From the IMG/VR virus record IMGVR_UViG_3300002231_000752, positions 66,798 through 89,498 of that record: a stretch of DNA of 22,701 nt, one strand, 5' to 3'. A program made the translations under genes and the position numbers. How positions within the stretch are numbered: position 1 is the first letter of the stretch; the number at the start of each line of letters is the position of its first letter. Source of the stretch: a virus. This document shows positions 2,075 to 18,389 of this stretch, piece by piece. The notes beneath the pieces were generated by a model. It saw nothing but the letters and a program-made list of their open reading frames with translations. It did not search any database and was not told the origin of the DNA.

Positions 2075-4675
2075 TTATATTGCCCTTCTTGTACCCTTAA
2101 CAGTCCAACCACTAGTTGAGGCATCTGTTATTAGAATTGCGTTATTTTGTGACATTATTCCTGACAATATTAATGGTGAGGTATCACCAATATCCGTTGT
2201 CGCTGTTTGCGTGAATTGGATATAAGGTGAGATATCACTCCATGTCATCATAAAATTGGTTACCCTTGTTGCTGATACATTGTAAACAACCAAATCATAA
2301 AAGACTCCCTTATATGATCCAGAAGGAACAGAATCTATTGTACTTATACCTAGTCCTAATGTAGTACTATCAATTTCAGTACCCCAAATTCCACTAGTGT
2401 CATTAACATTACTATATACCGAATCCCAGTTTGCGCTTGTATCCGCAACATTACTATATACCGAATCCCAGTTTGCACTTGTATCTGTGACTGAAGTATA
2501 TACTGAATTCCAGTTTGCGCTTGTATCCGCAACATTAGTGATATCTATTCTATTATCAATAATCTGTGTCTGAAGATATGTAATGTCATCTTGTACTGCT
2601 ACTGATGATATATCTAACCCACCGATACCACTAGTACCAATAGCCCAGGTATCGTTTCCTTCATTCCAAATAAACAGTGCGTTAGCAGAGGCTCCCCTCT
2701 TAATAGTGATACCAGCATTCTCTGTTGGTAATCCTGCCGTAACATTGGAATTAAGTGTTAATATGTTATCATCTATTGTGACATCTTCAGAATGTATAAT
2801 TGTTGCGGAACCTTCTACCGTTACACTTCCTACTTTGATATCAGCATAGTTAACATCATCAAGTGTACGGAGTTGTAATATGTTACCTACTTGCTTTAAT
2901 ATGGTTCCGTTAGCTGATCCACTAGCAAGAGCAAAGGTTGTTTTAGTAGTTCCTATATCAGTATTTTGTGTATGAGCTAATTCAATTGCTGATCCTACGT
3001 CACTACCATTAACTTCTATACTGTAAGCACTTAAATTACTAATAAGAATCGTACTACCAGTGGATTTGATTGGAACTCCACCAATGAATAATGTATCAGC
3101 AGAAAAATGTCCGTCATTAGCAGAAAGATTTCCTTGTGCAGAAATATTACCAAACACTGTAATGTTGTTTGCATGTAGTGTATCTTCTGATACTGCTGAT
3201 ATATCATTACCAATTATCATGGCACCAGAAAGTGATTTAGTATCGTTATTTCTACCACCAAGAATGCCTGAGTAGTAACCCGAAGCTCTATTGTTTAAAC
3301 CACCAGCTATTGTTGTTGCTAAACCAGGTGCACAGTTTATAGTACCACCAGCTACTGTTGAATAGTCACCACCAGAATAATTCCATCCACCACCACCGAC
3401 TACTGAATATTCTCCACAAGCACTAAGATTAGTACCACCAGCAATTGTGGACCAATTACCAGCCGCTATATTAAATTGACCACCACCTACTGTTCCAGCC
3501 AACATTGTAATGCAATTATTAAAACCACCAGCTATTGTATTATTGCCACTAAGTGTACGATTATATCCACCACCACCTATTGTTGAATTAAGTTGATGTG
3601 TACTATTAAAAGAACCACCAGCTATTACTGATTGCGACCCTAACGCACAATTTGCAGTACCACCACCAATTGTTGATCCTTGTCCAGTAGCAATATTACT
3701 ATTACCACCACCAATTGTTGATTGACAATATGATGCAGTATTGAGCCAACCACCACCTATTGTTGAATGACAACCATCTGCTACACTACTTACTCCGCCA
3801 CCAACTGTTGAATACGGGCCAGAAGCGGTATTACCAATACCTCCAATTACAACGGAAGCCATTCCTGATGCTACTTGGGTAGAGAAACTCCTACCTGTTT
3901 GAAGGTCTACTGAATTAACACCCCTTGCATCCCCAATAGGACTTCCTGGGTTAGTGGCTGAAATTGCAAGTGTGGTTGCATTCTGAACACTACCAGCATT
4001 AGCACCAACAACCCATGATGCACTATTAGCACCTACTGTAGTATATGTTGAATTCCAATTATTGGACGATGTAGAAATAGCAGTAGTATTATCATATATT
4101 GCACCGCTCAAATATACAATATCACTATCATTGTTTGTAATGTTTGTTGAGTTAGTATCTATTGAACTGCTAAGATAAGTAACATCAGATTCTAGATTGG
4201 TAATATTTGTGGAGTTAGTATCAATAGACGCACTCAAATATATTACATCAGAGGTAATAATAGCAATATTAGTCGTGTTGATATCAATTGATGCACTGAG
4301 GTAGGATATATCAGTGGATTCTTCCCAACTATCACTAAGAGTGTTTACTTGTGTATAGGCTGAGTCCCAATTACCAGATACTTGGGCTATGTTTGCAATG
4401 TTTGATGTATTAACATCAATTGATGCACTGAGGTAGGATATATCAGTGGATTCTTCCCATAAGGCACTAAAAGTATTAACTGTAGTGTGGGTAGAATCCC
4501 AATTACCAGAAGCAGCGGTTATTGCTGAAAGACTATTTTGGGAAGTTCCTAGATTATCATCAATAGATTCTATTGCTAATTGAGCAGTTGAACCAGAAAT
4601 GATATCTAAGTTCTTTTCGTTTACTGAGACCTGCTTTGCAGGCATTCTTTGGACATTGAATAAAAATGGACTCAT
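2075..4675 (-). CDS. Large tail fibre / structural protein with coiled N-terminal repeats and glycine-rich head repeats
   Basis: This 866-residue protein is a paralogue of its downstream neighbour. Residues ~45-215 hold repeats of YLSASID-N-(T/S)-(N/T)-I and SGNWDS-type units, likely a trimeric stalk. Residues ~275-475 are GGG-x-x-N-x-A head repeats. Residues ~480-515 carry the same neck segment as the neighbour (AMIIGND...LHANNITVFGN). Around 630-680 lies the element DNILTLNSNVT...PTENAGI...WNEGNDTWAIG, a module I recognise from phage tail fibres. Near 735-790 there are 14-residue tandem repeats (TSANWDSVYSNV), followed by a unique C-terminal domain. A second Met at residue 11 is an alternative start; neither has a good ribosome site. 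GATAAATA lies 8 bases upstream of the ATG and resembles a T4 late promoter. Virion fibre is a strong inference; receptor and tail position are unknown. Confidence 0.8.
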   Translation of the reverse strand: MSPFLFNVQRMPAKQVSVNEKNLDIISGSTAQLAIESIDDNLGTSQNSLSAITAASGNWDSTHTTVNTFSALWEESTDISYLSASIDVNTSNIANIAQVSGNWDSAYTQVNTLSDSWEESTDISYLSASIDINTTNIAIITSDVIYLSASIDTNSTNITNLESDVTYLSSSIDTNSTNITNNDSDIVYLSGAIYDNTTAISTSSNNWNSTYTTVGANSASWVVGANAGSVQNATTLAISATNPGSPIGDARGVNSVDLQTGRSFSTQVASGMASVVIGGIGNTASGPYSTVGGGVSSVADGCHSTIGGGWLNTASYCQSTIGGGNSNIATGQGSTIGGGTANCALGSQSVIAGGSFNSTHQLNSTIGGGGYNRTLSGNNTIAGGFNNCITMLAGTVGGGQFNIAAGNWSTIAGGTNLSACGEYSVVGGGGWNYSGGDYSTVAGGTINCAPGLATTIAGGLNNRASGYYSGILGGRNNDTKSLSGAMIIGNDISAVSEDTLHANNITVFGNISAQGNLSANDGHFSADTLFIGGVPIKSTGSTILISNLSAYSIEVNGSDVGSAIELAHTQNTDIGTTKTTFALASGSANGTILKQVGNILQLRTLDDVNYADIKVGSVTVEGSATIIHSEDVTIDDNILTLNSNVTAGLPTENAGITIKRGASANALFIWNEGNDTWAIGTSGIGGLDISSVAVQDDITYLQTQIIDNRIDITNVADTSANWNSVYTSVTDTSANWDSVYSNVADTSANWDSVYSNVNDTSGIWGTEIDSTTLGLGISTIDSVPSGSYKGVFYDLVVYNVSATRVTNFMMTWSDISPYIQFTQTATTDIGDTSPLILSGIMSQNNAILITDASTSGWTVKGTRRAI
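2385..2540 (-). repeat. 42-base tandem repeats encoding 14-residue units
   Basis: About three units with a 42-base period (for example starts at 2406 and 2448) encode TSANW(N/D)SVY(T/S)(S/N)V-x-D. They form a short repeat before the C-terminal domain of the 866-residue fibre protein. Confidence 0.75.
3250..3850 (-). repeat. Coding repeat array (GGG-x-x-N-x-A units) in second fibre gene
   Basis: The same glycine-rich repeat type as in the first fibre gene, in frame, encoding roughly residues 275-475 of the 866-residue protein. The units are diverged in DNA sequence, so this is an old protein repeat rather than a recent DNA duplication. Confidence 0.75.
4283..4459 (-). repeat. Pair of identical 45-base direct repeats in fibre stalk
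   Basis: The 45 bases at 4283-4327 and 4415-4459 are identical, 132 bases (44 codons) apart, and encode WEESTDISYLSASID. Identity at DNA level points to a recent in-frame duplication of a stalk segment. Confidence 0.85.
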
Positions 4676-4701: not shown

Positions 4702-7700
4702 TTATCCCTTAGATTTTTTGAGTTTTTCTCGATCCTTTTCTAAATGCTCAGTCAAACCCATCAAATCACATGTTCCGCCTGCACATGCTTGTCCAGCCCC
4801 ACCGAAGTCTTTTGAGGTGAATTCTTCTTCGTAGTATTCTGACCAATCTACATCCTTATAGTCTCGCTTAAGATCACACCAAATCTTCCAATTTTGGACA
4901 TCTTTTAGGCAATATGTCATCTTTCTGATGTCATTGTCAAAGTACTTCTCTGCAAACTTCTCTGCTCTTGTACGAACCTTGCGCTTTTCGTAATAATTCT
5001 TCACGTTACTTTGCAACCAAGCTCGTAAAAGTTTATCTGGAGATTCAGGAGACAATCCTTCTTCTTTCCACTTTACTCCATTGCTTATCAGATCTTCTTC
5101 TATCTTTTTCCTTTAGCTTCTCCACATCCAGTATCTCACCAATACCTAATATAGAATCACAAGCTGACCAAAGAATTCTCATCAAAAGACATCATTGGCT
5201 GCTACAATTAGACCACTGGCTAAAACAGAAGCATCACCATATTCTCTAACTAATTCATAAGGAGTATAGACAGCAGTGAACGGAGATTGTGGATAATCCT
5301 TATCGCCTGACATTGGAAGGATTGAAATACCAGCAAACCAACCTCTGTTCCTATAGATAAAACTTTCTATCTTATCCCATTCATCTGGTTTTACATTAAT
5401 GGTATTTGAAACATTGTGTCTGAGCCATGGTTCAGCACATGTATCTTTACGTGTTCCATACTCAACCCAATTCTGTTGTGTCAATCTAACATTCTCAAGT
5501 AATGTCAAAGCATCAACATCGTTCTTTGTCTTTGCACCATCAGGAACTTCACACAAAAAGGTAATTACTTGATCTGTTCCACCATTTGACCATACAGAAT
5601 TCTCTACGGCTGTTGGGTTATAATTTTTGAAGAACTTCAAAGGAGCTTCAAGATTATTTGCTTGAACTCTTCTGAAATATCTACGTGCATGATGAGGATG
5701 AATACCAGACGCTGTTCCCAAAATGCAGCTTGTTGTACCTGCTGGCTTCACGCACGTTGCTCTCGCGCACCTGTTGACACCAATTATTGGTGCAAGACGA
5801 TCATTCACTTCAAGTATGAGCTTTGCTCCCTTGCGTTGAATCTTGGGATCGAATGCTATCTCTGGTACATCAGCCATTCCTGTCATTGATACACCAAGAA
5901 GTGCTTCTCTCTTTACAATGTTATTTGTCACTTCTCCAAGATATGGGAAGTTATCATAAGAAGCTTGCATGGTTCCTAGAATAGCAGCAGCTTTACACGA
6001 CTCCAAAAACTTTTCCTCGTTGTTGGCCTTCTTCATGTTAATCTCACAGAGATTACAATTATGTACAACTAATCCATTAGCATTAAAATTATGTGTACTA
6101 TTGGCACTTATATCATATACGGGTTCTCTTCCAAGATAAGAAATATTTTCTAGTTTAAATAATCCACGCTTAGATGATCCGTTCTTCTCCCATGTTATGT
6201 TATTTAAATCTGTTTGTTTTCTTGGATGTATTCTAAATCCTATTTTATTTTTAAATAAAGTAATATCATCTCTATGACCAATATACAAAATCGATTGGTT
6301 TTTATTATCTCTTTTTCTTTTATGATTAGTAACTCTTGATGTTATTCCAAATTCCGTTAAAGCAATTTGAAGTGAACTAGCTAAATCTTCATTGGCTATT
6401 GTTATAGATATTCTCTTATTTCCGTTTTTGTTTATAACAGATCCATCAGCGCAGAATAAAGATGAAATATATCTTGCTTTATCATCTTTAGAAGATGTCC
6501 AATAAGACTTCATTATATTTTTGTCATGTGCTCTTCCATTTGATAATCCCCACCTTGATAATATTTTTTCTTTCTTGTTTTTATTTGTTATGTTATATGT
6601 TCTAACTTTGGAATCTTTATCTATATCAAACTTGATATTACCATATCTATTTCCATAATTACCACCATCGATTTCATTAACAAAAGTTTCGAATAATGGT
6701 ACTAACTTCTTTTCGGCTATATTATCTTCTTCGCTTCCAAAAACAATACCAAAACTATTATCACCAGAACACCATCCATCACCTAAATTCCACCCCAAAA
6801 GATCAAAATTATTAGGTTTATAATCTTTAATATCATATGTAACTTTATCATTAGATAATGTTTCATTTGCAGATATTAACATGTCTGTTCCTACAACCAA
6901 ATCACTCACTCTTACATACCCTCGTTGTGTTAACAAAGAATGATTTGCAGTTGCTTTAAGGATAGGTCCACTTTTAGTTCTTATTTCATAAACGTCCTTT
7001 ATACCTGTATTAAATACAGATGCTGGAACAATTATGTTATCCGTTAAATCATTAATTCCTTTATTGTCATTCTTAAATGTAGATACTACATTTATATTAT
7101 TTTCTAATTCATCAATTCTTATATACCCTCTGTCTGTTTGAACTAATGTATCTCCAGTCAAACAGAACTGCCAACCAGAATTACCGTCATCATCATACGC
7201 TCTCATGCCAATCTCTACGCATGGATTGTAAAGAGCTTCTCTGTTGTCTGTCCAAATAAATCCAGGCTCACCAAACTCCTTAACAGATTCCATCAACTTG
7301 GCAAAAAGTTCTCTGGGTGTATCATCTCTCACAAGTAGAGCAGAATTATTGGAACGTCCGCGCTGTGGATTATCTCTTCTCCATGCACCGACCTTTGCAT
7401 TACGCATGTCGTCATCTTCTGGTGAGAATATACAAATAGTTGCGGAGCGTCGAACACCACCAGACAAGACCGCATCAGAAGAATGCATTATAACATCATA
7501 AGCATCAATTGATCTAAGTCTGTTGTTAAACTTGATACACTTGTTCAATAGGACTTGTATCTTGATAATAGAATTGCGAAGACCATCTGGGCCTGGAGCC
7601 TTTGAACCAAAAGATATTGGAGCACCAGCAGGACGGATCAACGAGTAGTCAAAGTTTACTGTGTAGCCTTTATACTCTGGGAATGGAACATCACCAACAA

Positions 7701-8178
7701 AATACGAAGACATTAAAACTCCAATAGCATCTGCCCATCCTTCAATGCTATCTGGAATCACATACGTCTTTGTTCCTTTGGTTCGTTCTTTTATCTTTGG
7801 GAGTTTAGCTATGTGTTGTGATTGAACAGAAAATCCAACCCCACAACCGCAAAGCAAAAGGAACATGGACTCTTGGAAAAAACGTGGCCTATCACAATAG
7901 GAAACTGTGCAGTTATAAAGTCGAGCATTCTTCTTTATAATTGGATCGCCGCCAAATTGCAAAGCTCGTTGGGAACCAAGAACGCGTTTTTGCATGACCA
8001 TTCGTTTTACAAAATCAAAGTCTTCTTTTATTTCAGGTAGTTTGTCAGAAAACTTTTGTTCATGCATATCGAACACTCTATCAACTTGCTCGATCCATGT
8101 CTCTCTTCTATTTTCTTCTGGTATGTAACGCGCATATTTTGAGACTCTAGTATATTCTTGTAACGCTTGAATTGACAT
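4702..8178 (-). CDS. nrdJ: Class II (adenosylcobalamin-dependent) ribonucleotide reductase with intein; 3' end frameshifted
   Basis: Reduces ribonucleotides to deoxyribonucleotides; the family is the monomeric B12 type (RTPR-like). Visible motifs: NCTVSYC (C90, redox partner), NPCVEI (residues 318-323, with radical Cys320 and Glu322), CNLCEIN (second redox Cys, immediately after the intein) and VKPAGTTS. The frame stops at 5182, but minus-strand reading continues in other frames as DEN, LWSACDSILGIGEILD, then IEEDLISNG onward in the original frame, ending with the ACAGGTCDL redox tail typical of the family. Three single extra bases (near 5184-5187 TTTT, 5174-5177, 5105-5109 AAAAA) explain this. 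Corrected length is about 1157 residues, or about 788 without the intein, close to the 739 of the Lactobacillus enzyme. The ATG at 8178 has an AAGGAA site. The 4702-5055 frame is its C-terminus, not a separate gene. Confidence 0.9.
6058..7164 (-). mobile_element. Intein with LAGLIDADG homing endonuclease, inside RNR
   Basis: The 369-residue element starts at Cys339 (CLTGDTLVQTDRGYIRIDEL, block A) and ends in LVVHN followed by Cys (block G and +1 nucleophile). The block B motif TANHSLL is present. LLGWNLGDGW and YISSLFCADG are the two LAGLIDADG helices with their acidic residues. VYDISANSTHNF is block F. Precise removal joins WQF to CNLCEIN, restoring a conserved RNR motif. Splicing residues look intact, so it is probably active in splicing; endonuclease activity is inferred. 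It is visibly more AT-rich than the flanking exteins, consistent with acquisition. Confidence 0.95.
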
Positions 8179-12421: not shown

Positions 12422-12481
12422 CCCACATTCAGAGGTAGGATTTTCTAGCTGTGAGGAGAGAAAATGCACATGAAGTGTGGG
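12422..12481 (+). promoter_or_regulatory. Hairpin enclosing an upstream start site of the HNH gene
   Basis: The outer stem pairs 12422-12429 with 12474-12481 (8 bp, one G-U). The inner stem pairs ATTTTCT (12440-12446) with AGAAAAT (12459-12465). The apical loop contains GTGAGGAG, and the in-frame ATG at 12464 is partly in the inner stem. The structure would form only in transcripts started upstream of the late promoter. Confidence 0.5.
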
Positions 12482-12487
12482 CCTTTG

Positions 12488-12495
12488 TATAAATA
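12488..12495 (+). promoter_or_regulatory. T4-type late promoter TATAAATA for HNH gene
   Basis: An exact TATAAATA. By T4 rules transcription would start near 12501, giving a leader of about 14 bases that begins with GTGAGGAG and ends at the ATG at 12515. It places this plus-strand homing gene under late control inside a minus-strand region. Confidence 0.65.
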
Positions 12496-12514
12496 CTTAT
12501 GTGAGGAGATAATA

Positions 12515-13150
12515 ATGCAAACAAAAATCTGTACTAAATGTAATGCTGAGAAATCTATAGAAGAGTTTTATAAAGCTAAAAGTGGTAAGTATGGACGTAA
12601 CTCTAAATGTAAAACCTGTACAAAGGCTGCTGTGTTGGAATATTACAAAAAGAATACTGAAATATGTAAAGAACGACAATTAAAATGGCGAACAACAAAT
12701 AAGGAACATAAACTAAAAATAGATAAAGAATATAGGGATACACACAAAGATGAAATAAAGGCTTATAGAGAAAAAACTAAAAGTAGAAGATCAGAATACC
12801 ATAAAAATTATTGTTATAATAGAAGACAAACCGATGTGGATTTTAGAATTTTAAGCACATTGAGAAGTAGAATTAGTACAGCTATTAGACAAGATAGTGG
12901 TGATAAAGCGTATAAAACTATAGAATTATTAGGTTGTTCAATTAAAGAACTTAAACAACACTTAGAATCTAAATTCACTGAAGGAATGACATGGGATAAT
13001 TATGGGGATTGGCATGTTGATCACCAGATTCCATGTATCTCTTTTAATCTGAAAAACCCAGAGGAGCAAAAGAAGTGTTTTCATTATACAAATCTTCAAC
13101 CACTCTGGGCTTATGATAATCTTTCTAAAGGTACTAAAATTATTCAGTAG
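12515..13150 (+). CDS. Free-standing HNH homing endonuclease
   Basis: A 211-residue protein that probably cuts DNA to spread its own gene. The N-terminus has a zinc ribbon (C6-x-x-C9, C32-x-x-C35), followed by a long basic helix-rich region with many Lys/Arg. The C-terminal HNH core reads WHVDHQIPC (His167, Asp169, His170) and then FHYTNLQPLWAYDNLSKG. The start at 12515 is chosen because GTGAGGAG lies 6 bases upstream and TATAAATA precedes it. An in-frame ATG at 12464 also has GTGAGGAG and would add 17 residues. The gene is opposite in strand to both neighbours, AT-rich, and its end overlaps the GroES gene end by 11 bases. It interrupts no recognisable gene. Confidence 0.9.
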   Translation: MQTKICTKCNAEKSIEEFYKAKSGKYGRNSKCKTCTKAAVLEYYKKNTEICKERQLKWRTTNKEHKLKIDKEYRDTHKDEIKAYREKTKSRRSEYHKNYCYNRRQTDVDFRILSTLRSRISTAIRQDSGDKAYKTIELLGCSIKELKQHLESKFTEGMTWDNYGDWHVDHQIPCISFNLKNPEEQKKCFHYTNLQPLWAYDNLSKGTKIIQ

Positions 13151-15823: not shown

Positions 15824-16287
15824 CTAATTCAACACTCTTATCTTAACACCCTTTGCTAAAAACATCTTTCTTGCTGCATCTCCCTTATATTTATCCTTTA
15901 CATCCTTTTCCTTTGGATCACCTATAAAAGCCAAGACAATTTCTTTAATACCTGCTTGAATTATAGCTTGTGCACAACCATTGCTACAAGGAAAATACCC
16001 ACGAGAAGAATACATGTATAGCCTACAACCCCGTAAATCTTTTGTGGCATTAAGGATGCATTAATTTCAGCATGTATTACATAATCATCTTTAAGTCCAC
16101 GATCCCAAGGGAACTCATCATCTGATATTCCTGTAGGAAACCCATTATAAGAAACAGAAACTACTCTATTATCCTCATCTACAATACAACAACCATGTTG
16201 ACTTCTTGGATCTTTGCTTCTTTTGGCTGCTAATTCAGCAATTCCAATGAATAACTCATCCCACGATATATAATCTTTACGTTTCAT
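15824..16287 (-). CDS. Deoxycytidylate (dCMP) deaminase, single-base frameshift
   Basis: Deaminates dCMP to dUMP, feeding dTMP synthesis. Zinc and catalytic motif HAE is at His72-Ala-Glu74, and the second motif PCSNGC gives Cys101 and Cys105. The spacing is Cys-x3-Cys rather than the usual Cys-x2-Cys, which is unusual. After HAEINA the frame runs into unrelated residues, while the next frame continues perfectly as ILNATKDLRGCRLYMYSSRG and on to the end. One base is therefore missing near 16057-16060. Corrected length is about 154 residues. Start chosen at MKRKDYISWDE (16287) rather than 16302, because the promoter at 16293-16321 would start transcription there. The gene is leaderless and without a ribosome site. 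Divergent from the plus-strand gene at 16369. Confidence 0.88.
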
Positions 16288-16292
16288 ACCAT

Positions 16293-16321
16293 ATAGTACC
16301 ATGGTTCCTATTGAAAATCAA
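16293..16321 (-). promoter_or_regulatory. Early-type promoter of dCMP deaminase, predicted leaderless start
   Basis: TTGATT (16316-16321), a 17-base spacer, then TACTAT (16293-16298) with TGG upstream (extended -10). Five bases separate it from the ATG at 16287. Its -35 abuts and shares one base with the -35 of the divergent promoter. Confidence 0.6.
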
Positions 16322-17341: not shown

Positions 17342-17370
17342 TTGCATTGTGATATAATATATTGTATAGT
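17342..17370 (+). promoter_or_regulatory. Early-type promoter of primase, predicted leaderless start
   Basis: TTGCAT (17342-17347), 17 bases, TATAGT (17365-17370), then exactly 6 bases (CACGAT) to the ATG at 17377. A competing TATAAT at 17353-17358 has a poorer -35 and would give a 12-base leader without a ribosome site. Confidence 0.5.
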
Positions 17371-17376
17371 CACGAT

Positions 17377-18389
17377 ATGAATAGATTACTTCCATCTGAA
17401 TACGTCATGTCCAAGTTCTATCAATTGGCTGGATTTGTACGTTACAAAAAATCCTCTGGCATATACGAGGGTTGTTGTCCTACCTGTCGAGAAGGCAAAT
17501 CCTGGGGCAAGAAACGAAGACTTTATTACATCCCAGACAAAGACTTGATCTGTTGCAAGAATTGTAGCAGAAACTGGAGTCCTGTTAACTGGGTTAAAGA
17601 ACTTTCTGGTCTTACATTTCATGAAGTAATGGAAGAAGCCAAGGATTATGATTTTGCCAGCTTTGAAATCAAGGATGAAAAGTTTGTCCGTCCTAAATCA
17701 GAAGCACTACCTGTTGATTCTATCAACCTATTCGATCAGCAGCAAGTTAATTATTACATCAAAGAAAAGGTAGTAATTGATGCGCTGAAGATAATCAAAA
17801 GATAGAAGGCTAGATACTGCCATCAACAAACCTAAAGCACTTTACGTTAGCTTGAAAGACTTTGTTCATAAGAACAGGTTGATCATTCCTTATTATGACT
17901 ATAGAGGCAAGCCTGTTTGGTATCAGTCAAGAACCATATATAGAAAAAAATAATGATACTCCAAAGTACATGAGCAAACTAAACGCAGATAAGACCGTGT
18001 ACGGTGTTGATAAGATTAATGAGCAACTTAATCACTTGTTCATATTTGAAGGCCCGATTGATTCTATGTTTGTACAAAATGGTTTGGCTATGGGTGGTAT
18101 CACTATGAGTGAGGTCCAAGAAGAACAAATGAATCGCTACAGACTTTACCAAAAAATCTGGGTTCTTGATAATCAATTGAAAGAAAATGATGACGTAAGG
18201 TATCAAATCAATAAACTACTTGAACGTGGTGAACGGGTATTCTTATGGCCAGATAAATTCAAAGGAATCAAAGACATAAATGAACTATGTGTTAAAGTTC
18301 GTAAGGATAGTATTAAGGCAGACTTCTTTGTAGATAATTCCTACGAAGGTAGTAAAGGTCTTGCTAAAATAGTTGAATTAACTCGTTGA
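17377..18389 (+). CDS. 61: DNA primase (gp61/DnaG-type, zinc ribbon plus TOPRIM), two frameshifts
   Basis: Makes RNA primers for lagging-strand synthesis. The N-terminal zinc ribbon has C34-P-T-C37 and C60-K-N-C63 with the usual GKKRRLYYIPDKDL strand between them. The TOPRIM part has LFIFEGPIDSMFVQNG (catalytic Glu and Asp) and later KIWVLDNQ and GIKDINEL. The frame stops at 17805, continues in a second frame as KDRRLDTAINKPKALYV to TIYRK, and then in a third to 18389. One extra A at 17797-17800 (AAAA) and one at 17944-17950 (A7) explain both breaks. Corrected length is about 336 residues, against 342 in T4 gp61. The ATG at 17377 has no ribosome site. The 3' end overlaps the convergent gene by 12 bases. 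Confidence 0.85.

Follow-up and report, generated by a model that had tools for sequence, protein, structure and literature searches.

A stretch of viral DNA of 22,701 nucleotides (referred to here as the window) carries on its minus strand a ribonucleotide reductase (RNR) gene that is interrupted at positions 6058–7164. We read this insert as a class 1 LAGLIDADG homing intein with predicted splicing and cutting activity, and give this reading a probability of about 0.92. The insert lies directly before the codon of a cysteine that aligns with a redox cysteine of class II RNR, and this residue would also serve as the +1 nucleophile in splicing.

The virus record from which the window was taken comprises 93,596 bases. 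The phage was classed as T4-like because the neighbours of the RNR gene match the profiles of portal protein gp20 and tail-sheath stabiliser gp15. The RNR open reading frame (ORF) runs from 8178 to 5182 (−) and has 998 amino acids counted from ATG, interrupted by 369 codons at 7164–6058. The N-extein (7165–8178, −; RTPR-type class II RNR residues 1–338, ending in NSGWQF) was delimited from the ORF and from alignments with profiles and with 1l1l, the RTPR of L. leichmannii. The C-extein, as open in the record, covers 5182–6057 (−) and stops after AANDVF. When the RNR part was compared with 1l1l, the RTPR fold was recovered with a Z score of 34.3 over 556 aligned residues (rmsd 3.4), in agreement with the class II RNR host named in a first-pass annotation of this DNA. 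The whole-protein RTPR profile TIGR02505 gave 193 bits against a cut-off of 340, with the intein-interrupted, truncated ORF as query. As written in the record, the host gene is an interrupted gene for a monomeric class II ribonucleotide reductase (RTPR type, NrdJm), with the C-terminal cysteine pair lying outside the RNR chain. Elsewhere in the window, a gene at 12464–13150 (+), which runs in the opposite direction to the adjacent genes, matched an Endonuclease VII/HNH-type nuclease (phrog_1035, E 8.5e-24) and is possibly another mobile nuclease. The ORF at 2075–4675 (−) encodes a protein of 866 amino acids with many GGGxxNxAxGxxSTI-type repeats; it matched no Pfam or PHROG family, and has a fibre- or adhesin-like look.

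The insert is free of stop codons over its 369 codons and is in the RNR frame on either side. Its GC content is 28.4%, versus 40.6% and 39.9% for the flanking exteins. The intein, 369 residues from CLTGDTLV to LVVHN, was delimited from the ORF, profiles, fold and an alignment of same-site inteins (A4), in which splicing and endonuclease motifs are conserved at 43–51% identity. All of its motifs are on the minus strand. Cys1 of block A (7162–7164) is invariant in A4, and the Thr and His of the block B motif TANH (6940–6951; T72, H75) are invariant both in A4 and in a further alignment, A5. LAGLIDADG motif 1, DLLGWNLGDGW (6772–6804), has G124, D129 and G130 conserved in A4 and A5. Motif 2, ISSLFCADGSV (6436–6468), has D240 and G241 conserved, and Pfam LAGLIDADG_3 extends across residues 229–309. 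Blocks F and G (6058–6120), VYDISANSTHNFNANGLVVHN, were recognised from the sequence, the profile and A4, and end with His368-Asn369. It is clear that Cys1, TxxH, the C-terminal His-Asn and Cys+1, which define class 1, are all present.

Profile searches gave 52.4 bits for Pfam Intein_splicing (PF14890; cut-off 35.8) and 52.4 bits for LAGLIDADG_3 (PF14528; cut-off 22.5). The NCBIfam model intein_Nterm (TIGR01445) scored 43.9 against a cut-off of 24.5 with the intein alone as query, and intein_Cterm scored 20.3 against 15.6 with the whole ORF as query. The fold model of the intein had a pLDDT of 87.3, and matched HINT and endonuclease folds over its full length, the matches including 1dq3 (PI-PfuI; Z 27.6, 327 residues, rmsd 5.1) and 7qss (Z 27.3). 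A structure model of the whole precursor was weak within the intein part. The first-pass annotation had placed a LAGLIDADG intein at 6058–7164 and had described blocks A, B, F and G and both endonuclease motifs as intact; the coordinates proved exact, and every one of these motifs was found. A real intein is thus confirmed at the sequence level, far beyond chance.

To which residue of the enzyme the insert is adjacent was read by alignment with 1l1l, in which the redox pair is taken to be C119 and C419, with C408 as thiyl cysteine and the tail pair at C731/C736. In a phmmer alignment, residue 708 of the ORF, i.e., Cys339 of the mature RNR (codon 6055–6057, −), aligned with residue 419 of 1l1l. 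A profile built from 12 intein-free relatives (A2) gave the same placement, so that the earlier claim that the +1 nucleophile is itself the redox cysteine came through the alignment proposed for checking it. Cys339 is a cysteine in 109 of 109 loci. The thiyl-radical cysteine, Cys320 of the NPC motif (7219–7221, −), aligned with NPC of 1l1l and is a cysteine in 95 of 95 loci. In redox chemistry the +1 Cys is expected to pair with Cys90 (7909–7911, −), whose counterpart in 1l1l is presumably Cys119. HMMER left the C119 region of 1l1l unaligned, and the assignment of C90 therefore rests on its invariance (A2, and 109/109 loci) together with the overall fold match. Exactly five cysteines are invariant in A2, namely, in window numbering, C90, C320 and C339, together with the two of the tail; between A2 and 1l1l, the NPC and CNL cysteines align, and the tail pair aligns weakly. 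Excision of the insert joins WQF to CNLCEIN, which, as had been predicted, is the exact sequence of the empty sites in loci L083 and L003.

Occupancy of the site was examined in viral contigs drawn by their exteins and not by the intein (80 loci retained from 599 matches, and 31 more), and was assigned from read junctions. At C339, 110 loci were read; L111 (at a contig edge) and L092 (on the same contig as L036) were removed to give 108, L001 (a weak intein match) having been left out before counting. The intein-free relatives that the first-pass annotation had asked for were plentiful, the site being empty in 104 of the 108 and occupied in four (window, L066, L074, L085). Inteins were also found before C90 (3 of 109 read loci: L066, L072, L097) and before C320 (7 of 95 loci: L042, L083, L095–L098, L113; L086 and L088 carry one too). 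The counted loci include near-copy contigs (L095, L096 and L098; L086–L088). Further inteins occur in L066 at KPAG^T and in L113 at KPSGNA^S, the caret marking the insertion point. The RNR of L066 (3798–9059) is a single ORF of 1754 amino acids; its three inteins precede C90, C339 and the KPAG^T threonine. The NP^C intein of L113 (2078–3259) ends in ARR rather than HN or GN, and may not splice.

The position of the insert is explained by the tendency of inteins, already known, to settle at conserved sites, because the inteins of relatives precede other catalytic cysteines as well as Thr and Ser sites. The conserved-site rule predicts such a position (PMC2814812). All four occupied C339 sites read CNLC, versus 16 of the 104 empty ones (Fisher p 0.0009, which ignores kinship, the contigs not being independent). 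This association fits an endonuclease that would read its target DNA.

When loci were drawn by similarity to the intein, L134 and L135 were found to be occupied at C339, L137–L139 at NP^C (L139 with a second intein at C90), L142 at GGVRR^S and NP^C, L144 at NP^C, and L152, a phage record, at NP^C. A scan of viral contigs for HN-CNLxxIN, a pattern limited to leucine codons of the form CTN and to inteins ending in HN, and blind to other forms, returned 12 stretches. Two of these were on contigs already in hand (L163 on that of L085, L161 on that of L135), and nine gave no match to the intein in the reading frame inspected, the match of L159 being confined to 7 extein residues. The other, L156, is a new fragment of what reads as a class I-like RNR and carries CNLGSIN; its intein is 27% identical to that of the window over 369 residues; another intein, before CTEI, is visible there only by its end. 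A cellular source was sought by an A4 profile search of genome contigs (19 loci, junctions read at 8), and the inteins found were distant or elsewhere. L114, L116, L117, L118, L120 and L126 were set aside as distant inteins (21–27%), that of L114 lying before a cysteine region of another RNR. L122 and L127 were rejected as inteins before CHML in another gene, though the best segment of L122 exceeded 50%. Plasmid matches came to three records, all in helicases. In phage records, megablast found no match to the window DNA, and a similar intein was present in 32, always below 60% identity.

In a tree of the inteins, those of the window, L085 and L074 formed one clade (100/100), the three C90 inteins another (100/100), and the C320 inteins two separate groups. 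L134 and L135 carry the same type of intein as the window at the same C339 site. The C339 intein of L066 fell outside the C339 clade, a placement that is unsure because of its long branch; more than one lineage of inteins seems to have reached C339. Occupied and empty alleles occur in close relatives. The closest relative of the window, L083, has exteins 80/88% (N/C) identical and an empty C339, and L074 (occupied) and L075 (empty) have exteins 90/84% identical. Between the window and L085, the inteins are 50% identical, below the exteins (68/74%), and no recent transfer is visible from these values. For the window and L074, transfer and descent are not separable, since the intein (41%) and extein (45/36%) identities are similar.

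Downstream of the C-extein, the RNR reading frame is broken at 5058–5185 (−), where relatives such as L083 and L089 have a single open frame. The frame is lost after codon 998 with a stop at 5182, and it shifts more than once within 5058–5185. The C-terminal tail, with its cysteine pair CAGGTC, follows in another frame (4702–5055, −), and is 81% identical to that of L083, which is in frame. Since the break is 3′ of the C-extein, an active mature enzyme is not readable from the record as written. Of the 103 contigs whose 3′ end is closed, 101 have the tail pair in the same ORF, the exceptions being the window and L113; six short-tailed loci fell under the length filter of that count, and their ends show the pair. 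Two unrelated genes of the window are likewise cut. The dCMP deaminase gene (15961–16302, −) matched its profile in the initial portion alone, with unrelated residues at its end, so that a frame break is likely, and a DNA primase of family phrog_47 is split across two ORFs (17362–17805 and 17895–18389, +). For this reason a sequence error is the likeliest cause of the RNR frame break, and the intein itself is unaffected. A programmed frameshift or a natural nrdJ-a/nrdJ-b split at 5058–5185 was judged less likely, because the frame changes more than once and the two other genes are cut. An Rfam search of the window gave no match, so that the break is not a described self-splicing intron. In L155 (1150–1390), a non-coding stretch of about 240 bases breaks the nrdJ gene of KLEP7 at its NP^C codon; a group I intron was not called there, Rfam giving no match at either threshold.

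The broken frame, with the tail cysteines out of frame, could also mean that a dead or decaying intein sits in a decaying RNR gene, and the NP^C intein of the closest relative, L083, is indeed not open in one frame. Such decay is unlikely for the window, whose intein is fully open, has every motif and gives a confident fold, while the cuts in the dCMP deaminase and primase genes point to sequence error.

We return to a homing class 1 intein, which would have invaded a phage gene for monomeric class II RNR at its conserved CNL motif. In class 1 chemistry, the +1 residue accepts the N-extein, the terminal Asn cyclises and an S-to-N shift follows. Here, after translation, Cys1 would form a thioester with the N-extein and the chain would be handed to the +1 Cys; Asn369 would then cyclise with the assistance of His368, and the S-to-N shift would restore WQF-CNLCEIN. 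The restored redox cysteine would pair with Cys90 in catalysis. In co-infecting phages, the endonuclease would cut alleles that lack the intein, at these same codons, and the intein would thereby spread. Both activities, splicing and cutting, are inferred, as is the inactivity of the precursor. It is plausible that deletion scars would not be tolerated at this site and that unspliced enzyme would be inactive.

As the +1 nucleophile is the redox cysteine, its oxidation, by a disulfide with Cys90 in the folded precursor or with Cys1, might block splicing, and the RNR would then mature only in a reducing cell. There is a precedent in M. smegmatis DnaBi1, in which a disulfide between catalytic Cys118 and Cys48 underlies a redox-sensitive splicing model (PMC6195587). 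DnaBi1 belongs to class 3 and has its partner cysteine within the intein, unlike the window type, which has no conserved one: across the five inteins of this type (window, L085, L074, L134, L135), a partner inside the intein was sought and Cys1 was the sole common cysteine. Moreover, phage RNR inteins are found in front of Cys90 itself and of the thiyl cysteine, and some precede a Thr or Ser. Such a switch, which the first-pass annotation had thought plausible, found no support in this analysis and is accordingly quite improbable. Its more specific form, in which a turnover disulfide between Cys90 and the +1 Cys of the folded precursor locks the nucleophile and gates RNR maturation, is very improbable. 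If true, phage dNTP synthesis would be released only when thioredoxin-type reductants are plentiful, and the inteins of separate lineages before three catalytic cysteines would be three forms of one thiol switch. A further reading is that the intein aids maturation of the RNR. This has been proposed for the R2 intein of Aquifex aeolicus, which separates two metal ligands in an RNR subunit; the construct encoding the intein yielded more iron and a doubled activity (PMC8772380). Such a role is barely credible for a class II enzyme, which has no such metal site, and with 104 of 108 related contigs lacking an intein at C339.

Ordinary homing-intein biology at a conserved site thus describes the insert, and related cases are on record. 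Bacillus phage SPBc2 bnrdE (NC_001884) and Staphylococcus SPbeta-like nrdE2 (KT429160) have inteins before the Cys of SNL^CSE and SNL^CTE, respectively, 22–24% identical to the window intein over the whole length. These belong to class Ib RNR and precede a different catalytic cysteine, read here as the thiyl cysteine. The SPBc2 bnrdE intein was deposited as putative, and a catalytic-cysteine position is thus already on record. The best whole-length fold match was the archaeal intein endonuclease PI-PfuI (1dq3), 20% identical to the window intein, whose host gene is presumably also an RNR. Many insertion sites of RIR1 (RNR) inteins have been named, with alleles up to rir1-m (PMC4071816). Thermus virus g20c NrdJm, also a monomeric class II phage RNR, has a likely intein (PMC6459318). 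In A. aeolicus R2, a LAGLIDADG intein at the RNR catalytic centre was shown to splice (PMC8772380); unlike the window case, it is in a class I beta subunit and adjoins metal ligands. In the literature searched, mostly outside subscription papers and available in part, the three-cysteine intein pattern was not found stated for RNR.

To these cases the window adds a class II RNR of a phage, whose homing intein would use one of the catalytic cysteines of the enzyme as the nucleophile for splicing. Across this RNR family, resident inteins are found at each of the barrel cysteines C90, C320 and C339. The conserved-site rule may therefore be tested on one enzyme, and these genes would provide natural precursors for tests of redox-dependent splicing.
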